NCBI GenBank assembly: GCA_947456245.1
Contig: CANGPS010000002.1
Coordinates: forward strand, 1-64,000
Direction: 5' to 3'
Length of the DNA stretch: 64,000 nucleotides
DNA from: Acidimicrobiaceae bacterium
GTDB taxonomy: Bacteria; Actinomycetota; Acidimicrobiia; Acidimicrobiales; RAAP-2
This document shows, piece after piece, positions 49,447 through 59,085 of the stretch (positions are counted from its first letter, which is position 1; each line of letters starts with the position of its first letter). The position numbers were made by a program, and so were the translations under genes. A model generated the notes under the pieces. That model was not told where the DNA came from. It was given only the letters and a program-made list of their open reading frames with translations, and made no database searches.

Positions 49447-49452
49447 TACACT
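49447..49452 (+). promoter_or_regulatory. -10-like TACACT, 7 nt before GTG 49460 (leaderless candidate)
   Basis: TACACT-TCGGGCA-GTG. Confidence 0.5.
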
Positions 49453-49459
49453 TCGGGCA

Positions 49460-50101
49460 GTGAACGAGCCCGATGACGCCGAGGCGATCCCGGCGAGCCT
49501 CGACGGCTGCGAGGTCATCCTCGTACCGGTGAAGGCCTTCACCGAAGCCAAGGTGCGCCTCACCGCTGCGCTCGGGTCAGAGGCTCGCGCCGCGCTGGCC
49601 CGTCGTCTCGCCGAGGGTGTGATCCGGGCTGCCGACCATGGGCCCGTCGCGGTGGTGTGCGACGACGACGAGGTCGCATCATGGGCGGCGCAGCTCGACA
49701 CCATCGTGATCTGGGCACCGGGGAAGGGTCTCAACCGAGCCGTGGCGTTCGGGGTCAGCGAGCTCGAGGCGCGGGGAGCCAGCCGGATCACCATCGTGCA
49801 CGGCGACATCCTCGACCCGTCCGGCCTCTCCGACCTCCCCAGGGTGGACGGCATCCTCCTCGTCCCCGACCTGCGAGAGGACGGGACCAACATCATCAGC
49901 CTGCCGTCAGGCGCCACCTTCGAGTTCGCCTACGGACCGGGATCGTTCCACCGTCATCGATCGGCGGCATTGGCTGCCGGACACGAGGTGACCGTCGTCC
50001 GAGACGTGCTGCTCGGCCATGATGTCGATCGGCCGAGCGACCTGCCCCACACCAAGCCCGGACGCGACGGTGGGGGCCCGAAGGCCCCCACCTCGCATTG
50101 A
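49460..50101 (+). CDS. cofC: 2-phospho-L-lactate guanylyltransferase-like (coenzyme F420 biosynthesis)
   Basis: VILVPVKAFTEAKVRLTAAL, VVCDDDEVASWA, GLNRAVAFGVSELEARGASRITIVHGDI, LVPDLREDGTNIISLP. Confidence 0.85.
   Translation: MNEPDDAEAIPASLDGCEVILVPVKAFTEAKVRLTAALGSEARAALARRLAEGVIRAADHGPVAVVCDDDEVASWAAQLDTIVIWAPGKGLNRAVAFGVSELEARGASRITIVHGDILDPSGLSDLPRVDGILLVPDLREDGTNIISLPSGATFEFAYGPGSFHRHRSAALAAGHEVTVVRDVLLGHDVDRPSDLPHTKPGRDGGGPKAPTSH
50069..50092 (-). terminator. Hairpin with UUCG tetraloop on minus-strand RNA, downstream of lysine-rich gene and inside the 3' end of cofC
   Basis: Minus strand GGTGGGGGCC-TTCG-GGCCCCCACC, 10-bp perfect stem. Confidence 0.7.
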
Positions 50102-50116
50102 GCTGACGCTCGGGAC

Positions 50117-50533
50117 CTAGCGGCGAGAAGCCGCCTTCTTGGCCGGAGCCTTCTTCGTCGCCTTCTTGGCGGCGACCTTCTTGGCCGGGGCCTTCTTGGT
50201 GACCTTCTTGGCAGCGGCCTTCTTGGCCGGAGCCTTCTTCGTCACCTTCTTGGCCGGGGCCTTCTTCGTCACCTTCTTGGCCGGGGCCTTCTTCGTCACC
50301 TTCTTGGCCGGGGCCTTCTTCGTCACCTTCTTGGCCGGGGCCTTCTTGGCCGGAGCCTTCTTGGTGACCTTCTTGGCCGGGGCCTTCTTCGTCACCTTCT
50401 TGGCGGCGACCTTCTTGGCCGGAGCCTTCTTGGTGACCTTCTTGGCAGCGGCCTTCTTGGCCGGGGCCTTCTTGGTGACCTTCTTGGCAGCGGCCTTCTT
50501 GGCCGGGGCCTTCTTCTTTGCGGCAGTAGCCAC
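50117..50533 (-). CDS. Lysine/alanine/proline-rich repeat protein (histone H1 tail-like)
   Basis: About 9-aa VTKKAPAKK and longer [14 protein letters not shown] repeats throughout; GTG start with strong SD AAGGAGGT (complement of 50541-50548). Confidence 0.8.
50139..50520 (-). repeat. In-frame tandem coding repeats (27-bp unit encoding VTKKAPAKK, with variants)
   Basis: Repeated accttcttggccggggccttcttcgtc units on the plus strand. Confidence 0.9.
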
Positions 50534-50892: not shown

Positions 50893-52239
50893 ATGAGCTC
50901 GACCATGGTCGGACAGGTCGAAGGCGGTCCTGCACACGCCGGCATCCTCCTCGGACGCGATGCCCGGGGATGGGTCTGGTCCGGCCATCAGCGAAGCACC
51001 CTGGTGCTCGGGCCGACGAGATCGGGGAAGACCACCAGCATCATCATCCCCAACGTCCTGAGCGCCCCGGGCTCGGTCGTGCTCACCTCGACCAAGCTCG
51101 ACGTGATCGACGCGACCTGCGCGTCTCGCCAGGAGGTGGGCCACACGCTGCTCTTCGACCCACTTGGCGCAACCCCCGTCCCGAAGGGCATCACCTCTGT
51201 CGGCTGGTCACCGCTGAGCGCCGCGACGACGTGGGATGGCGCCATCGACATGTCGAGTGCGATGGTGACCGCGGCACAACGGCGCGCCCGAGGCGCACCG
51301 GCCGGTGACCACTGGTCGGAGCGAAGTGCCGCCCTCCTCTCGACCCTGCTCTTCGCCGGTCGAGCCGCCGACCTGCCGCTCTCCCGCCTCGTCGGCTGGG
51401 TGGATCGACACGCCGGCGAAGAGGCACTCGAGATCCTCGGGGACCGTGCCGGCTCCGACCACCCGGCAATGGCGCTCCTCACCGGCATCCTGGCCACCGA
51501 CAGCCGAGAGCAGTCAGGGATCTGGTCGACCACCTCAGGGGTCCTCGGCGCATACCGATCGCTCGGCGCCCTCGCTGCCACCGAGCGCGACGTCCTCGAT
51601 CCCGACGCATTCGCCGATGGCGCCCACACGCTCTACATCTGCGCCAGCGGCCGCAGCCAGGAGCTCGCAGCCCCGCTCGTGGTCGGGCTCCTGTCCGAGA
51701 TCCGGGCAGCCGCCTATCGTCGCAACGACGTGTCCCGGCCCGTCCTGTTCGCCCTCGACGAGCTGGCGAACATCGCCCCCCTGCCTGACCTCCCTCAGAT
51801 CGTGAGCGAAGGAGGGGGCCAGGGGCTGCTGACCATCGGCTGCCTCCAGGACCTCTCGCAGGCCCGAGTGCGATGGGGACCGGAGGCCGACGGGTTCCTC
51901 TCGCTCTTCTCGACCACCCTGCTCCTCGGTGGCGTCGCGGATCGGACAACGCTCCGAGCGTTCCACGATCTGGCCGGACGGGCGACGGTCGCTCGCGTCT
52001 CTCGATCGGCCGCTCGCTCCGGCCCGAGGCGGCGGAGCGTCACCGAGACCTGGAGCACGACCGAGGAGCCTGTGATCCCACTGGATCTCGTGGCGAGGGG
52101 GCGACCCGGTGCCGGGCTGCTCCTCGATGCCACCAACTCGGTCGGATGGGTGCCGCTCACCGTCGCCCACCGAGACGAGCCCTGGGCCTCGCTCACCGGA
52201 CGCACACGTCCGAGGCTGCTCACCGAACGCCATCGATGA
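50893..52239 (+). CDS. VirD4/TraD/TraG-like coupling ATPase without an obvious N-terminal TM region
   Basis: STLVLGPTRSGKTTSIIIPNVL (Walker A), VLTSTKLDVIDAT, RPVLFALDELANIAPLPDLPQIVSEGGGQGLLTIGCLQDLSQAR (Walker B); ORF opens at 50836, start uncertain. Confidence 0.85.
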   Translation: MSSTMVGQVEGGPAHAGILLGRDARGWVWSGHQRSTLVLGPTRSGKTTSIIIPNVLSAPGSVVLTSTKLDVIDATCASRQEVGHTLLFDPLGATPVPKGITSVGWSPLSAATTWDGAIDMSSAMVTAAQRRARGAPAGDHWSERSAALLSTLLFAGRAADLPLSRLVGWVDRHAGEEALEILGDRAGSDHPAMALLTGILATDSREQSGIWSTTSGVLGAYRSLGALAATERDVLDPDAFADGAHTLYICASGRSQELAAPLVVGLLSEIRAAAYRRNDVSRPVLFALDELANIAPLPDLPQIVSEGGGQGLLTIGCLQDLSQARVRWGPEADGFLSLFSTTLLLGGVADRTTLRAFHDLAGRATVARVSRSAARSGPRRRSVTETWSTTEEPVIPLDLVARGRPGAGLLLDATNSVGWVPLTVAHRDEPWASLTGRTRPRLLTERHR

Positions 52240-53410
52240 ACAGCTCGGCCCTGTCGGACCGGACCCGGGAGCGAGAGGCCTCGTCGAGCCACCATGCCAG
52301 CTCACGCCGATCCGTCGGCCGAGGTCCGAGCCGCGCCAAGGTCCGCCAGGTCGGGAGCACCGCCGGGCTCAGGACCACCTCCGCAGCGCCACGCCCCAGA
52401 GGATCCTCGATCCGGCCGAGGATCTCGCCCATCGCGGCGACTGTCATCCCCGACGTCGCCGCCGTTGCCACCGACTCGACGAGCGTCCTCGCGGTCAGCG
52501 GACGATCGTGCAGGACCCCAGCGGCTCGGTGCTCATCGAGGTGACCGACCGAGCGGGCGAAGCGCGGTGGGTCATCGAGCGTGACCACCCGGCTGCGGCG
52601 GATCGACCAGCGCTCGAGCGCCTCGGCCCTCGTCTGCGCCACCTTCGTCGGACGGTCGAGGACCCCTCGACGGACCTCCTCGGAGCGGCCGCTGAGGGCC
52701 AGGCACTCGCCGTCAGAGATCCCCTCGATGCGCGGTTCCCCATCAGCTCCCCTCAGGAAGGTGAGTCCAAGGCGCGCCGTGAGCTCTGACCGCAGAACGC
52801 TTCGATACACGGCATCAGCCGCCCTCGCGTGGGCGCGGAGCGCCACGACGTCGAGAGCGCCGAACCGCCCGTCGCCCGCCCTCGCCCTGTTGGCGAGCAG
52901 CACATGGCTGTGCAGATGAGGATCACCGGACCGGCTCGCACCGTGGGTGAACCCAGCCGCCACGACGCCCTCGGCGTGGAGCCAGGCCCGCTCTCCGCCG
53001 GGACGCTGTCTGATCACCCCGGCCGCCCGGTCCTCGAGGTAGCCGAGTGCCGCCCCGACGGCCTCCTCGTGGCCGAGCACGGCCGATCGGGCCACGCTCT
53101 CGTCAGGCGACGCCATGAGGAGGCTGGCCGGCTTGGGTGCGGCGAAGATCAGATCGACGGCTGCCCGTCGCTGACGCACGCTCGGGGTGATCGTGCCGCC
53201 CGGGCGCCGCCCCGAGAGGATCAGCTCGAGGACCTCGGGCTCGATCCGGCCCTCGAGGCCGATGGTCGACGCCGCCGTCCCGAGCCATCGCCCACGCATA
53301 GCTCCATCGAAGAGGTCAGCGACCTCTCGTGCGGGATCGTCGAGCAGGTAGCGCCCGGTGGCGTCCTTGAGCGACGTGATCCTCAGCACCCGTCGAGCCT
53401 CATGGCTCAC
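52220..53410 (-). CDS. TrwC/MobF-like relaxase domain protein lacking the helicase region
   Basis: HUH-type motif FTHGASRSGDPHLHSHVLL, DLIFAAPKPASLLMA, N-terminal ITSLKDATGRYLLDD; only 396 aa; GTG start in GTGA overlap with upstream gene. Confidence 0.85.
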   Translation of the reverse strand: MSHEARRVLRITSLKDATGRYLLDDPAREVADLFDGAMRGRWLGTAASTIGLEGRIEPEVLELILSGRRPGGTITPSVRQRRAAVDLIFAAPKPASLLMASPDESVARSAVLGHEEAVGAALGYLEDRAAGVIRQRPGGERAWLHAEGVVAAGFTHGASRSGDPHLHSHVLLANRARAGDGRFGALDVVALRAHARAADAVYRSVLRSELTARLGLTFLRGADGEPRIEGISDGECLALSGRSEEVRRGVLDRPTKVAQTRAEALERWSIRRSRVVTLDDPPRFARSVGHLDEHRAAGVLHDRPLTARTLVESVATAATSGMTVAAMGEILGRIEDPLGRGAAEVVLSPAVLPTWRTLARLGPRPTDRRELAWWLDEASRSRVRSDRAELFIDGVR

Positions 53411-55347
53411 ACGGTCGCGGCATACCTCCTCAGGACCCGCTCAGCCGTCGCCCGACCGCAGCCCACGAGGTCGACGGGGCCCAGCACGCTGGCGTCGGGT
53501 CCGGCCTGCAGGAGGAGTCGGCCGAACCACAGCGTGCTGAGGACCGACAGCGCGACCACGATGCGGCCGTCCTCCTCGACGTGCCGGCCCACGATCGGGA
53601 CCGAGTCGGCCACCCAGCGGGCGCCGGGGCCAAGGACCACCAGCGCGGTCTCGGCATCATCGGACTCGATGAGCTTGACGCCGTCGGCCGCACCGACGTC
53701 GATGCCTGGCCGGCGAGCGCCGACATCTCGCACCGACTTGAAGCGGTCGGCATGGAAGATCCTGAAGTCCTCACGGGCGGTGCACCACGCCCACACGTAC
53801 CACTGACCATCGTGCACCTCGCACTTCAGGGGGTCGATGACCCGCTCGGTCTCGACCTCGGTCGAGTCCGCCAGATAGACGACCTCGAGCTCGCGGGCCT
53901 CCTCGCATGCCTTGGTGAGCTCGGCGAGGAAGGGCGGCTGCGGGATCTCGATCACCACCGACTTCGCCGCCGCCAGCGCGGTCTCGAGCTTCGCCACCGC
54001 CGATGCGAGCGGCCCCTCGGCCCCTCCCCCGGAGACCTCGAGCAGCATCTTCGACGAGGTCACGAGCACCATGGCGTCAGGGGCCGAGAGCTGTCTGGTG
54101 CGCTTGAGGTCCGGAAGGCTCGCCGTGACCGTGTGGGCATCGACGATGATGTCCATCAGCTCGCCCGGAGAGTAGGGCGGGCGACCGAAGCAGGCTGCGA
54201 ACTCGAGTTCGGCGACGACCTCGGCGACCGTCATGCCGAACCTGGCGGCCACCTCGGAGGTGTCCACCGTGCCGACCTCGGCCAGCCACTCCAGCATGGC
54301 GAACAGGCGCTGGAGCCGGCGCTCCGTCGGCGTCATGCTGAGGCCCGTCGGCCCCGTCGGCTCCACCGAGGGGTCCAGCTCGCTGGCATCCGACACCGAG
54401 ACCGGCGCCGGGTCAGGCTGCTGCGCCACCGACTCGAGCCACTCGACCATGGACGCGCGCGCCGCCGCGGGAGACACGACGACGGCCGAGTCGAGCAGGC
54501 CGATCACCCAGGAGCGGGCCTGCTTCCAGGATCGGATGGGGATCGACAGGCGGGCCGAGCCGTCGCTGCGGCGCTCGGTGGCGTAGCCGCCGCCGAGCGC
54601 CTGCTCGAGCCGCCACGCTGCGCTGGCGTCGACGTCGAGGACGAGGGTCTCGGTCGCCTCCTCCTCGTCGACGGCGCTCGGCACGCTCAGGATGCGACCG
54701 CTGTCGGCCACCCCAGCCGGCACCACGCCGCTGCCGCGAGGTCCGATCGAGGGCTCAGACTCGATGCGGTCGACCCGGAAGTTCTTCGCCACCTTGTCCG
54801 CCGTGTCGTAGGCCTCGAGGTACCAGTGACCGAGGAGGAACCGCAGGGCAATGGGGTACACCTTGCGCTTCACGCCCGAGTAGTCGAACCGGGTCTCTGC
54901 CTCCATGAAGATCCCCTGGTAGAGCACGGGGCTGTAGGGGGACACGTCGACGTCCATCACCGGAGAGGCCGACGTCACGTTCCCCAGGCCGATCTTGGAC
55001 AGGCCGTCGACCTCGCTCACGCCGTTGACCGCCACCGCCGCCAGCGCGAGGTCGAGGGCTGCGATCTCCCGGTCCGTCAGATCGAGATCCGGCAGGTAGT
55101 AGGTGGCGGGATCGATCCGGTAGCGGTAATCGTTGGCCGAGCCGCTCTCGATCACCTCGACCTCGACGCCACGCTTGCGCAGCAGCACCTTGTCTCGCTC
55201 GAACTGCTGGCGCGACGCCGACGGCGAGGAGTTCGGATAGTTCGGGAGCTCGTTGACGATCTGGTCGAGGGTGAGGCCCTGCGGAGCGTTGAGCAAGGTC
55301 ATCGTGAGGTCCACGAGCCGCTCGATGGTGTTGTCGTTGGCTGCCAT
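53407..55347 (-). CDS. Fused PafB-PafC-like double WYL-domain transcriptional regulator
   Basis: Two HTH-WYL units in 646 aa: TLDQIVNELPNYPNSSPSASRQQFERDKVLLRKRGVEVE..GHWYLEAYDTADKVAKNFRVDRIE and VDTSEVAARFGMTVAEVVAELEFAACFG..DGQWYVWAWCTAREDFRIFHADRF. Confidence 0.88.
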   Translation of the reverse strand: MAANDNTIERLVDLTMTLLNAPQGLTLDQIVNELPNYPNSSPSASRQQFERDKVLLRKRGVEVEVIESGSANDYRYRIDPATYYLPDLDLTDREIAALDLALAAVAVNGVSEVDGLSKIGLGNVTSASPVMDVDVSPYSPVLYQGIFMEAETRFDYSGVKRKVYPIALRFLLGHWYLEAYDTADKVAKNFRVDRIESEPSIGPRGSGVVPAGVADSGRILSVPSAVDEEEATETLVLDVDASAAWRLEQALGGGYATERRSDGSARLSIPIRSWKQARSWVIGLLDSAVVVSPAAARASMVEWLESVAQQPDPAPVSVSDASELDPSVEPTGPTGLSMTPTERRLQRLFAMLEWLAEVGTVDTSEVAARFGMTVAEVVAELEFAACFGRPPYSPGELMDIIVDAHTVTASLPDLKRTRQLSAPDAMVLVTSSKMLLEVSGGGAEGPLASAVAKLETALAAAKSVVIEIPQPPFLAELTKACEEARELEVVYLADSTEVETERVIDPLKCEVHDGQWYVWAWCTAREDFRIFHADRFKSVRDVGARRPGIDVGAADGVKLIESDDAETALVVLGPGARWVADSVPIVGRHVEEDGRIVVALSVLSTLWFGRLLLQAGPDASVLGPVDLVGCGRATAERVLRRYAATV

Positions 55348-55399: not shown

Positions 55400-55789
55400 C
55401 TATGCAGGACCGCTCATCACGACATCGGTGATGGCCATCGCTCGATCCATGGCCTTGCACATGTCGTAGATCGTCAGCCCAGCGACGGTGCACGCCGTCA
55501 TGGCCTCCATCTGCGCCTGGCGCCCGAGGTCGACCACCCGAACCGAGACGTCGATCCACCCCTCGCCGACCTGGAACGTGACCTCGACCGCGCTCGGAGC
55601 AGTTCGGAACGATGCCGGCAGCAGGTCGGCCGTGCGCTTCGCCGACTGCACGGCGGCGATGCGGGCAGCGGCGAGGACGTCGCCCTTGGCGACGGCAGCG
55701 GCGGCGACGGCAGCGGAGGTCGCCGGATCCATCACCACCCGACAGCGAGCGGTCGAGTCGACCTCCTCGGTGGCCCCGGTCTCCAGCAC
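55400..55789 (-). CDS. moaC: Divergent MoaC (cyclic pyranopterin monophosphate synthase-like)
   Basis: GDVLAAARIAAVQSAKRTADLLP and QMEAMTACTVAGLTIYDMCKAMDRAMAITDVVM; start reassigned to GTG 55789. Confidence 0.8.
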   Translation of the reverse strand: MLETGATEEVDSTARCRVVMDPATSAAVAAAAVAKGDVLAAARIAAVQSAKRTADLLPASFRTAPSAVEVTFQVGEGWIDVSVRVVDLGRQAQMEAMTACTVAGLTIYDMCKAMDRAMAITDVVMSGPA

Positions 55790-55796
55790 GGGGTGA

Positions 55797-55802
55797 AGTG
55801 TA
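55797..55802 (-). promoter_or_regulatory. -10-like TACACT, 7 nt before GTG 55789 of moaC-like gene
   Basis: TACACT-TCACCCC-GTG. Confidence 0.5.
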
Positions 55803-55892
55803 CGACCGCGTCGCGGCCATGCTGCTCTCGGGAGGCTAGAATTGGCACTCTTACGAGCCGACTGCCAACGCACCCTGACCCGGAGGAGCGTC

Positions 55893-56237: not shown

Positions 56238-57593
56238 TCAGGTCCCAGAGACCTGCATGTCTCCGATCGCCACGGTCTGGCCAGCGGCGACCCCCGGCAG
56301 CCAGGTCAGGTCGGCACCGATGCCCACGATGCTCATGAGCATCTTCTGGAACGTCGAGGCGACGGTGACCTCTCGGATGGGCTCCGCCAGCCTTCCATCT
56401 CGGATCATCAGGCCTTCGGCTCCGACGGAGAAGTCCCCGCTGACCGTGCTCACCCCGGAGTGCACACCGGTGATCGACTGCACGTAGAGGCCCTCGCCGA
56501 CGTCCGAGAGGAGCTCCTCGGCCGATCGGTCGCCCGGGGTCAGCACCAGCGCCCGACACCCGGCGCCCGGGCTGCCGGCCAGCCCCCCACGAGCGGCGGA
56601 GCCGGTCGACGAGACTCCCGCCCGTCGTGCCGAGACGGTGTCGTAGACGAACTGCCGCAGCAGCCCTCCGTCGATCAGGACGTTGCGGCGGCAGGCCAAG
56701 CCCTCTCCGTCGAGCGCCGAGGCGCCGTAGGCCCGCAGGTCGGTCGGGTCGTCGACGAGCGTGAACCCATCGACGGCGACCGCCTCGCCGAGGTGCCCCT
56801 CGAAGAAGGAGCGGCCGCGACCGACTGCGTCTCCGCTCAGCGCGCCGCTGAGCACGCCGAGGATCGTCGAGGTGACCCGGGGATCGAAGACCACGGTGGT
56901 CCTAATGCTCCGCCCCTTCGTCGCTCCGAGCATGCGCACCGAGCGCTCGACCGCGTCGCGCGCAGCCGCCTCGGGATCCAGCGCTCCCGGCCCGCGCCCG
57001 ATCGAGAACCCGGATCCCGTCTGGGTCTCGTCGGCGGATCCCGCCAGGGTGGCCACCGACAGGAAGGCGCTGGTCCGCTCGGCGGTGGCAGAGATCCCGG
57101 TGGTGGACACCAGCGCCATCTCCGAGCGGCTGTCGCCGTAGTCAGCGTTGTCGACGGAGCGGATCCTCGCGTCACCCGATCGGGCGGCCGACTCGACCGC
57201 CTTGACCAGGGCGATCTTCTCGTCGACCGTCACGAGGTGGGCAGCGGGGTCCACGAGGTCGACGGCTGCGGGGGTCACGCCATCCGGCGAGGCGAAGATC
57301 ACCATGGGATCCGGCGAAGCGAAGGTGGCGTTCTCTCTCGCCGAGGCCAGCGCGTGGGCGATCACATCCGGGTCAAGCGAACCGGCCGACGCCACCCCCA
57401 CCCGCGCCCCATCAGGGCCAGGCAGCAGGACCCGGATGCCGATGCCGGCTGAGGTCGCCGTCGACAGGCTCTCGATCTCCCCCTCGTAGACGCGGATCTC
57501 GGTGTCGGTGCCTCGGGCAGCGTACGCCTCGATCTCCTCGCCGCCCTGCGCCTGCGCCACCACCCTCGCCGCGATGTCGTGGAGCTCGCTCAT
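56238..57593 (-). CDS. pmbA: PmbA/TldE-type metalloprotease family protein
   Basis: YAARGTDTEIRVYEGEIESLSTATSAGIGIRVL, FSVGAEGLMIRDGRLAEPIREVTVAS; partner TldD adjacent. Confidence 0.9.
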   Translation of the reverse strand: MSELHDIAARVVAQAQGGEEIEAYAARGTDTEIRVYEGEIESLSTATSAGIGIRVLLPGPDGARVGVASAGSLDPDVIAHALASARENATFASPDPMVIFASPDGVTPAAVDLVDPAAHLVTVDEKIALVKAVESAARSGDARIRSVDNADYGDSRSEMALVSTTGISATAERTSAFLSVATLAGSADETQTGSGFSIGRGPGALDPEAAARDAVERSVRMLGATKGRSIRTTVVFDPRVTSTILGVLSGALSGDAVGRGRSFFEGHLGEAVAVDGFTLVDDPTDLRAYGASALDGEGLACRRNVLIDGGLLRQFVYDTVSARRAGVSSTGSAARGGLAGSPGAGCRALVLTPGDRSAEELLSDVGEGLYVQSITGVHSGVSTVSGDFSVGAEGLMIRDGRLAEPIREVTVASTFQKMLMSIVGIGADLTWLPGVAAGQTVAIGDMQVSGT

Positions 57594-58993
57594 GCCGCCG
57601 TCCCCCCGATGGTCACGCCCGTAATCCGCAGCGTGGGCTGGCCGCACCCGACGGGGACGCTCTGCCCATCCTTCCCGCACGTCCCCGGCATCATCGAGAA
57701 GTCGTTCCCGAGCGCATCGATGCGCCGGAGCACCTCAGGACCGTTGCCGATGAGGTTGGCGTCCCTGAGCGGCTCGGTGATCCGGCCGCCCTCGATGAGG
57801 TAGGCCTCGGTGGTGCCGAAGACGAAGTCGCCGGTGGCGGTGTTGACCTGACCTCCGCCGAGCTTGGCCACGTAGACGCCCTCCGGCGTCTGAGCGATGA
57901 TATCCTCCGGGTCCTCCTCCCCGCCGAGCAGGAAGGTGTTGGTCATCCTGACCATCGGGAGGTCCTTGTAGGTCTCTCGCCGTCCATTGCCGCTCGAGGG
58001 TCGCCCCTCCTTGCGAGCTCGGAGCCAATCCCACATGTAGTCCGTCAGGATCCCGTCCTCGATCAGGACGTTCCGCTGGGCCGGACGGCCCTCGTCATCG
58101 ATCGCCGAGGTCCCCCACTCGCCGGCCACCGTGCCATCGTCGACGAGCGTGACGAGCGGGCTCGCCACCTGCTGGCCGACCTGCCCGCAGTAGACCGACG
58201 AGTCCTTGACGATGTGATCCGCCTCGAGGCCGTGGCCACACGCCTCGTGGAACAGGACCCCACCGGAGCCCCCGGCCAGGACCAGCGGCACCTCGCCCGA
58301 TGGGGCCGGACGGGCCGCCAGCTTGGCCATCGCCCGTCGGGCGGCCACCCGGCCCATCTCCTCCACGTCTGCACCATCAAACAGCTCGAAGCCCTGGGTG
58401 CGGGCCAGCGACTCGAAGCCCGTCTGGAGGCCGGTGTCCCCGGTGGCGACGCACATCACGTTGAAGCGCGTGCGGACCTGATCATCGCTGGCGTAGACCC
58501 CATCGGTGGTCGCCACCAGGATCCGCCGTCGCCCCTCGCCGTAGGACGTGGTGACCTGCGAGATGCTCGCCCCCGCCGACCGAGCGGCGTCATCGGCCCG
58601 CTCCAGGAGCGCCAGCTTGTCAGCGGTCGGGACGTCGTCGAGGAGGTGGCGCACCGGTGCCTCATGGCGCCGCCGGCGCTCGAGCGGAGCGATCTTCGTG
58701 CCACCGCCGCCCTGCCGGGCGACCGCTGCGGCCGCTCGTGCTGCGCTCAGGAGGCCCTCCTCGCTGAGATCCGCGGTGTGCGCGAAACCAGTCGTGTCGC
58801 CAACCACCACCCGGATGCCGGCTCCCCGGGAGCTGCCGGTCGAGAGCTCCTCGATCCGGCCGTCGTCCCTCGAGGCGCTTCGGGAGGTCCGATCCTCGCA
58901 GAAGATCTCCGCCATGTCGCCGCCTCGCTCGACGGCGGCGGAGAGAACCCGCTCGATCAGGGCGGTCTCGATGAGGTCTGGGGATGCAGGCAC
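57590..58993 (-). CDS. tldD: TldD metalloprotease family protein
   Basis: GGSGGVLFHEACGHGLEADHI (HExxxH), FVFGTTEAYLIEGGRITEPLRDANLIGNG; start reassigned to GTG 58993. Confidence 0.93.
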   Translation of the reverse strand: MPASPDLIETALIERVLSAAVERGGDMAEIFCEDRTSRSASRDDGRIEELSTGSSRGAGIRVVVGDTTGFAHTADLSEEGLLSAARAAAAVARQGGGGTKIAPLERRRRHEAPVRHLLDDVPTADKLALLERADDAARSAGASISQVTTSYGEGRRRILVATTDGVYASDDQVRTRFNVMCVATGDTGLQTGFESLARTQGFELFDGADVEEMGRVAARRAMAKLAARPAPSGEVPLVLAGGSGGVLFHEACGHGLEADHIVKDSSVYCGQVGQQVASPLVTLVDDGTVAGEWGTSAIDDEGRPAQRNVLIEDGILTDYMWDWLRARKEGRPSSGNGRRETYKDLPMVRMTNTFLLGGEEDPEDIIAQTPEGVYVAKLGGGQVNTATGDFVFGTTEAYLIEGGRITEPLRDANLIGNGPEVLRRIDALGNDFSMMPGTCGKDGQSVPVGCGQPTLRITGVTIGGTAA

Positions 58994-58999
58994 CGCCTC

Positions 59000-59005
59000 A
59001 TCGTA
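59000..59005 (-). promoter_or_regulatory. -10-like TACGAT, 6 nt before GTG 58993 of tldD
   Basis: TACGAT-GAGGCG-GTG. Confidence 0.5.
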
Positions 59006-59085
59006 CCGGTCGCCTGTGGCACACGACCCGAGGACGACGTGGCCCACGGGCCGGGTTGGTAGCCTTGGATGGTGGTGAGACGAGC

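Follow-up and report, generated by a model that had tools for sequence, protein, structure and literature searches.

RESULTS

Gene content of the locus

The window analyzed here is a stretch of 64,000 nucleotides of contig CANGPS010000002.1 from an Acidimicrobiaceae bacterium (assembly GCA_947456245.1), in which a VirD4-like ATPase gene converges on a relaxase gene that is preceded, on its own strand, by a fused pafBC gene (Table 1). The ATPase and relaxase genes share 20 nt at their 3′ ends (52220-52239), and pafBC and the relaxase gene meet in a minus-strand GTGA junction (accGTGTGAgcc), where the WYL gene finishes with Val-TGA and the relaxase begins with GTG-AGC. The same layout recurs among relatives, with convergent ATPase and relaxase genes in 92 loci (61 with an overlap) and a codirectional pafC upstream of the relaxase in 98, some of these loci being one genome fetched twice. 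This arrangement is far from chance. The ORF list and the junction reading confirmed the coordinates, strands, and overlaps of the original prediction; domain matches agreed with its double-WYL PafBC-like fusion, TrwC-like relaxase, and VirD4/TraD-like ATPase, as did Pfam with the flanking genes it had named (cofC, moaC, an FmdB-type zinc ribbon gene, pmbA, and tldD).

Table 1. Features of the trio locus and its flanks (window positions)
Feature	Position	Strand	Length	Evidence and remarks
cofC	49448..50101	+		CofC 1.5e-15, F420_cofC; host flank marking the fixed locus
Histone H1-like, lysine/alanine-rich	50117..50533	-		Weak HC2 and histone H1-like matches
ATPase	50893..52239	+	448 aa	ORF list 50836/50893..52239
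MobF/TrwC relaxase	52220..53410	-	396 aa	
PafB-PafC fusion gene	53407..55347	-		Pfam WYL, HTH_PafC, WCX
moaC	55400..55820	-		MoaC 1.3e-27; host flank, upstream of pafBC
pmbA + tldD	56238..59047	-		ORFs 56238-57680 and 57590-59047; Pfam; host flank marking the fixed locus

The relaxase retains its active site and the ATPase is predicted to be soluble

The relaxase matched TrwC in Pfam (1.2e-46, 160 bits) and exceeded the NCBIfam cut-off for MobF. Its AF2 model (pLDDT 90, pTM 0.91) had as best Foldseek matches the TrwC-oriT structures 1osb/1zm5, with a TM of 0.76 by target length. Residues Y21, D86, H156, and H165/H167/H169 are retained (alignment A2), and a census of 110 relaxases found the catalytic tyrosine in 96 of 96 readable sequences, H156, H167, and H169 in all 110, H165 in 107, and D86 in 100, with Glu in eight others. 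The second tyrosine pair of TrwC (Y26) is not evident in alignment A2; many members carry an adjacent YY, and the window relaxase reads GRYLL. Pfam detected no helicase domain across its 396 aa, whereas relatives in the order include forms of 800-1070 aa, one of them with AAA_30. Some Acidimicrobiales members have further long relaxases. When the ATPase upstream regions of three groups were aligned, no oriT was identified and no shared hairpin was called, conserved blocks being confined to one group of near relatives.

The ATPase combines T4SS-DNA_transf (2.4e-22) and TraG-D_C (2.4e-20) domains and is a VirD4/TraG-like protein of the hexameric type, a RecA-like motor whose Walker A (GPxRSGKT) and Walker B (LDExAN) motifs are essentially invariant (alignment A1, 21 sequences). 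No N-terminal transmembrane segment was found in it, the maximum 19-residue hydropathy being 1.26, and it is predicted to be soluble, unlike the T4SS-linked VirD4 described below, which has a membrane segment by hydropathy. Directly 3′ of the ATPase gene, five loci carry imuA′-imuB-dnaE2, and this linkage is a second tie to damage genes.

The regulator is a fused PafBC

Pfam places two WYL domains, two WCX domains, and HTH_PafC in the regulator, that is, two HTH-WYL-WCX halves. It is the sole PafBC ortholog found in its own genome, and nearly all of the GTDB family has one PafBC per genome. No pafA lies beside pafBC in the window. In the module-negative genome G058 (locus L192), the gene upstream of pafB is one that we take, from its sequence, to be pafA-like. 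Mycobacterial PafBC is likewise a double HTH-WYL-WCX regulator, with natural fusions known in Arthrobacter (PMC6789036, PMC11804915), but it is encoded in the pup-proteasome locus, whereas the Acidimicrobiales gene adjoins the relaxase gene.

In Mycobacterium smegmatis, PafBC is activated through ssDNA binding and controls damage genes (PMC11804915), and mycobacterial PafBC is not itself damage-induced (PMC6789036). We searched for the mycobacterial promoter motif, tTGTCRgtg-N8-TannnT (PMC5656591), upstream of the ATPase, relaxase, pafB, T4SS, and control genes; it did not rise above shuffles, though this consensus is mycobacterial and may not hold in Acidimicrobiales, and there were isolated single hits, such as that at the T4SS of closed genome G067. 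The view that the relaxase and motor are under damage control thus drew no support from motif enrichment. As ssDNA is both the expected product of the relaxase and the activator of PafBC, it would connect the two more directly than damage control does.

The locus is fixed and the trio is vertically co-inherited

The order gpsA-cofC-VirD4, convergent with the relaxase and pafBC, followed by pmbA-tldD-dxs, is shared by almost all genomes of the GTDB family. Among 80 GTDB loci with sufficient flank, nearly all had this same position and gene order. We found cofC in 60 loci, nearly all of those with enough left flank, and pmbA/tldD in 37, where flank length allowed. The histone H1-like gene is divergent from the ATPase gene, and 71 of 121 loci have a Lys-rich ORF, which usually sits between cofC and VirD4. 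Synteny kept this long within a family could reflect inertia rather than function.

Within the family, the relaxase was present in 35 of 37 genomes and the module-type ATPase in 34 of 37; across the order, the ATPase was found in 58 of 198 genomes, spanning 19 families. Where VirD4 has moved, the relaxase is still beside pafBC (f28, f32, f33, f39, f43, f45, f50, and f61). The relaxase, ATPase, and T4SS occupy separate places on the closed chromosome G067, where the relaxase lies ~7 kb from pafB and is not adjacent to it. An apparent absence in G026 was not real: this genome has part of a relaxase gene at the edge of one contig and a DUF6112 gene on another small contig.

On the PafBC tree, module presence requires three changes, while shuffles averaged 15.5 and none of 500 was as low. 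The f16 case departs from this single-origin pattern: the ATPase is present, but PafBC falls among the module-negative sequences on the tree, and in G051 a relaxase adjoins a T4SS. This is possibly a separate acquisition. Distance matrices of the VirD4-like ATPase and the relaxase correlated at r=0.94, versus 0.75 with CofC (n=52), and the ATPase diverges more slowly (median distance 0.82) than CofC (1.04) and PafB (1.61).

No integrase was seen at the trio locus, and no mobile-element genes adjoin the trio or the T4SS operon. The fixed host flanks and the clustered phylogenetic distribution speak against a recent ICE insertion, and the single locus across the family, together with an ATPase found in 19 families, argues that the trio is not a stranded ICE. 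Among PADLOC models, neither the ATPase nor the relaxase had a match; only generic WYL matches appeared, plus weak mad8/DpdF matches for the T4SS ATPases.

An unlinked T4SS operon accompanies the trio

The original prediction saw no T4SS nearby, which is correct for the window but not for the genome. Beside a phoR-like kinase gene, the source genome carries an unlinked five-gene operon, DUF6112-SCO6881-SCO6880-VirB4-VirD4, split across contigs C69 and C70, and its position beside this kinase is fixed. The SCO6881 member scores 48 bits against an NCBIfam cut-off of 325 but sits where expected and has a membrane profile. Of 40 ATPase-positive genomes sampled, 39 have the VirB4 of this operon; among 20 ATPase-negative genomes, 6 have a VirB4, all copies being at most 47% identical. 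VirB4 distances also correlate with those within the trio (r=0.77 and 0.68, n=15). The description of the relaxase as an orphan is not supported, given a T4SS operon as conserved as the trio itself.

In G002, of the same genus, four T4SS genes have been lost and a truncated DUF6112 remains by the kinase, and the relaxase, ATPase, and PafBC are intact. This absence is real, as the kinase locus is intact on a 1.47 Mb contig, suggesting that the trio may work alone or that the loss is recent.

Overall, the original interpretation was partly supported. Comparison with related genomes turned up neither a recent ICE insertion nor a missing linkage, and retention of a relaxase and a motor on the chromosome is borne out by conserved, apparently active genes and by relaxase-PafBC linkage in many families.

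DISCUSSION

We propose, with a probability of about one half, that the trio and the T4SS form an anciently domesticated conjugation apparatus that moves chromosomal ssDNA and is tied to the PafBC response. An ancestor of many Acidimicrobiales families would have captured a conjugation machine long ago and turned it into a host function, the trio being its DNA-processing half. The relaxase would nick chromosomal DNA and remain attached to the 5′ end of the single strand, and the soluble VirD4-like ATPase may work on this strand, perhaps substituting for the lost helicase domain. The strand could then pass through the separate, vertically inherited T4SS, made of DUF6112/VirB2-like, SCO6881/VirB6-like, SCO6880, VirB4, and membrane VirD4 proteins, so that chromosomal ssDNA would be exchanged or released. 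We infer nicking, transfer, its direction, and its coupling to damage. Exchange might aid repair or recombination, as in archaeal Ced, and the linkage of the relaxase to an ssDNA-activated damage regulator suggests that ssDNA traffic is coupled to the damage response.

Archaeal Ced/Ted systems are a comparable case, as they comprise chromosomal conjugation-type VirB4, VirB6, and VirB2 homologues that have been called domesticated (PMC9905601). The Acidimicrobiales genes are, like Ced, chromosomal and vertically inherited conjugation genes; damage-response linkage and cellular DNA transfer are described for Ced/Ted (PMC9905601), and both are proposed for the Acidimicrobiales system. Ced/Ted has no relaxase, and Ced imports DNA, whereas the bacteria have retained a MobF relaxase together with an additional VirD4 that is soluble. 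The plasmid of Iamia sp. SCSIO 61187 (NZ_CP050950), also of the Acidimicrobiales, encodes DUF6112-(hypothetical)-SCO6881-like-SCO6880-VirB4-VirD4 and a MobF relaxase, but there a full-length 1124-aa relaxase lies near the T4SS on one replicon, whereas on the chromosome the genes occupy two loci, the set is reduced, and there is a link to pafBC. Streptomyces cmdABCDEF is chromosomal, with a VirB4-like ATPase, and cmdB/C/D resemble SCO6878/SCO6880/SCO6881, families of a type that occurs in the Acidimicrobiales operon; its reported phenotype is developmental (sporulation, chromosome segregation), and the passages describing it mention no relaxase (PMC2782261). The T4SS of Patescibacteria is likewise widespread, chromosomal, and of monoderm type, but mostly lacks a relaxase (PMC12102498), whereas the Acidimicrobiales relaxase is conserved with its T4SS.

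The trio could instead act inside the cell, independently of the T4SS, processing ssDNA where chromosomal DNA is broken or stalled by nicking, holding, moving, or rejoining strands and thereby modulating the ssDNA that activates PafBC (PMC11804915). An ATPase without the membrane segment of coupling proteins, the intact trio of G002 after T4SS deletion, and the imuA′-imuB-dnaE2 linkage are all consistent with such a role, but VirB4 accompanies nearly every sampled ATPase, and distances for the T4SS follow those for the trio genes. We also know of no MobF relaxase that acts in repair, which we count against this explanation, and overall we regard it as rather unlikely. Contact-independent secretion of chromosomal ssDNA, for biofilm or kin uptake, has a relaxase-dependent precedent in the gonococcal genetic island, where a relaxase and a T4SS move chromosomal ssDNA (PMC12857230), as we infer here, and fits a chromosomal relaxase and T4SS that mobile-element genes do not adjoin. 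The gonococcal system is F-like, lies on an island rather than in an order-wide core locus, and can do without pilin (PMC12857230), whereas the Acidimicrobiales operon retains a VirB2-like gene, and secretion of this kind seems quite improbable.

The homology to conjugative plasmid genes and the further long relaxases of some order members would suit a relaxase and T4SS that chiefly serve mobile elements in trans, or that are mobilised as a chromosomal island; the fixed position, the locus free of any integrase seen, and a long-term presence clustered on the PafBC tree make this very unlikely. Least credible is that these genes are what is left of an ancient ICE or plasmid, functionless and persisting through slow decay and synteny. 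Loss of the helicase domain in this GTDB family and of the T4SS in G002 would be expected of such a remnant, but catalytic residues are retained across the 110 relaxases, CofC and PafB both diverge faster than the ATPase, and the linkage survives amid different flanks.

Bacterial conjugation is usually viewed as a property of mobile elements, and here conjugation parts, including a relaxase, follow the inheritance pattern of core genes in many families within a single order. No earlier description of such a system was found in the open-access literature. Fixed chromosomal sites across many families, and a relaxase beside a predicted ssDNA sensor, suggest that conjugation machinery came to serve the host in connection with DNA damage. 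More tentatively, many Acidimicrobiales families may possess a bacterial counterpart of Ced with its own relaxase, coupled via PafBC to the damage response and exchanging chromosomal single strands between cells for repair and recombination. If transfer occurs, bacteria would have an equivalent of the damage-linked DNA exchange of archaea, and this could account for recombination in a largely uncultured group; even without transfer, a relaxase and a T4CP-like motor in a host role would represent a new use of these enzymes.

Results

The original prediction was right about the positions and strands of all three genes (table below), and its GTGA junction, in which the regulator stop overlaps the relaxase start, and its 20-nt overlap of the convergent ATPase and relaxase genes were both recovered. 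The regulator is most likely PafBC itself in a fused form, since a genome search found it to be the only PafBC ortholog. A Lys/Ala-rich histone H1-like gene (50117-50533, minus strand) lies between cofC and the ATPase gene, divergent from the latter, and a Lys-rich ORF occupies the matching place in most loci, distant families included.

Genes of the window locus and of the T4SS operon of the sister species
Gene	Location	Strand	Domains or properties
VirD4-like ATPase	50893-52239	+	Pfam T4SS-DNA_transf, TraG-D_C
Relaxase	52220-53410	-	Pfam TrwC alone
Regulator	53407-55347	-	Pfam two WYL, two WCX, PafC HTH
DUF6112	T4SS operon, sister species		115 aa, membrane
SCO6881 family	T4SS operon, sister species		seven hydrophobic segments
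SCO6880 family	T4SS operon, sister species
VirB4-like ATPase	T4SS operon, sister species
VirD4	T4SS operon, sister species		membrane-anchored

Among 37 genomes sampled from 21 genera of the GTDB family, the relaxase was found in 35 and the module ATPase and T4SS VirB4 in 34 each; nearly all genomes are MAGs, and apparent gene absences were examined only for G002 and G026. When one genome per species was scanned, 305 ATPase relatives came up, of which the best 80 (L109-L188) are nearly all labelled actinobacterial or Acidimicrobiales MAGs. ATPase and relaxase are convergent in 75 of these 80 loci and are followed by PafBC unless the contig ends earlier; two contigs (L110, L172) end short of the relaxase position, and in L155, L185 and L187 the relaxase is absent at the ATPase locus. 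The gpsA, cofC, pmbA, tldD and dxs flanks recur wherever the contig extends that far. Judged from this shared order and these flanks, the trio occupies a core-genome locus rather than an insertion. Genes were called by a simple codon score, and loci L109-L188 partly overlap those of the sampled genomes, so that locus counts are not species counts.

Directly after a module-type ATPase, five loci without the relaxase (L214, L236, L155, L185 and L187) carry imuA', imuB and dnaE2, assigned by recognising the sequences and matching them among loci rather than by a Pfam scan. Wherever enough flank can be read, they lie at gpsA-cofC. Elsewhere, imuA'-imuB-dnaE2 is a damage-inducible mutagenesis operon. 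A candidate small DnaQ/DEDD-type exonuclease-like gene, noticed by eye only, is convergent with pafC in L199, L229 and L250, and sometimes lies between pafC and the relaxase gene.

The catalytic Tyr is kept in all 96 readable relaxases (110 examined), three of the four HUH-region histidines in all 110, and the Asp in 100, with Glu instead in 8. AlphaFold predicts the relaxase structure with confidence (pLDDT 90, pTM 0.91), and the best structural matches of this model are TrwC with oriT DNA (TM 0.76 by target length). Relaxases of the window genome's family have no helicase domain; this short form is probably derived, because those of relatives reach 800-1070 aa and that of G057, at the same cofC locus, retains a helicase-type AAA_30 domain.

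With the ATPase as query, a genome-wide search turned up a further VirD4-like gene in almost all genomes of the family; in the sister species this gene sits in a five-gene operon. A contig break splits this operon in the window genome between C69 (kinase gene, DUF6112, SCO6881, SCO6880 and most of VirB4) and C70 (the remainder of VirB4, and VirD4). The predicted lack of a T4SS thus holds for the window but not for the genome, and the relaxase is no orphan, as the operon is present though unlinked. It adjoins a phoR/senX3-like kinase at a fixed place in many genera and another family, often with an amidase gene on its other side. In G002, of the same genus, the operon is lost (L278, 14.9-17 kb), leaving a truncated DUF6112 as remnant beside the intact phoR-like kinase, and the trio is intact despite this deletion. 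The best score of a PafBC-motif scan with the mycobacterial consensus was a near-consensus GTGTCAGTG-N9-TATGCT upstream of DUF6112 and the T4SS operon in L258, from the closed genome G067.

Across the order, sampled evenly (198 genomes, E <= 1e-55), the ATPase was found in 58 genomes from 19 families, most of them consistently positive. VirB4 accompanies it in 39 of the 40 positive genomes checked, and occurs in 6 of 20 module-negative genomes, never above 47% identity. On the closed 2.16 Mb chromosome of G067, VirB4 lies at ~210 kb, the relaxase at ~581 kb and the ATPase at ~610 kb. Where no relaxase adjoins the ATPase, one is found elsewhere in 23 of 24 such genomes, usually still beside pafBC where fetched (families f28, f33, f39, f43, f45, f50, f61 and f32); the two are ~4 kb apart in f49, and in G067 the distance is ~7 kb. 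Flanking genes vary among these families, and by this comparison of loci the relaxase-pafBC link has outlived rearrangement. In L209, L217, L225 and L239 (f32, f49), CaiB-like CoA-transferase genes, usually accompanied by a hydrolase and a methyltransferase, adjoin the module-type ATPase in place of the relaxase.

Discussion

On a PafB+PafC tree of 51 genomes, with many inner branches weakly supported, module presence takes 3 changes, against a mean of 15.5 for shuffled labels (0 of 500 shuffles as low), a count that does not distinguish a single gain from a single loss in the tree's other half. Departing from the pattern are f16, which has the ATPase and a PafBC placed with the negatives, and f12, a long-branch negative. 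Pairwise distances, which contain shared species history, agree with the tree count (ATPase-relaxase r=0.94, n=52; ATPase-CofC r=0.75; with T4SS VirB4 r=0.77 and 0.68, n=15). By this phylogenetic evidence, module presence probably traces to one old event.

An Iamia plasmid, from the same order, carries DUF6112, SCO6881-like, SCO6880, VirB4 and VirD4 genes in the order of the chromosomal operon, together with a full-length MobF relaxase. Compared with this plasmid module, the chromosomal system is split in two and reduced, and it looks like a derivative of such a module. Among plasmid genes, those closest to the soluble ATPase (~40%) come from small plasmids of Mycobacterium and Rhodococcus.

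Gene content, conserved catalytic residues, co-inheritance and PafBC linkage are established; beyond these, we propose that the relaxase and soluble motor would make and handle chromosomal ssDNA, which the T4SS could pass onward. The need for the T4SS is one of the two weakest steps, because G002 deleted it and keeps the trio. Damage control is the other, because a scan upstream of module and T4SS genes found no enrichment of the PafBC motif, whose consensus is mycobacterial. In mycobacteria, binding of ssDNA activates PafBC (PMC11804915), and the PafBC level is unchanged upon damage (PMC6789036). In archaea, a conjugation system has been domesticated as Ced, which serves damage repair via DNA import (PMC9905601). 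In these Acidimicrobiales, PafBC would couple the handling of ssDNA to the damage response.
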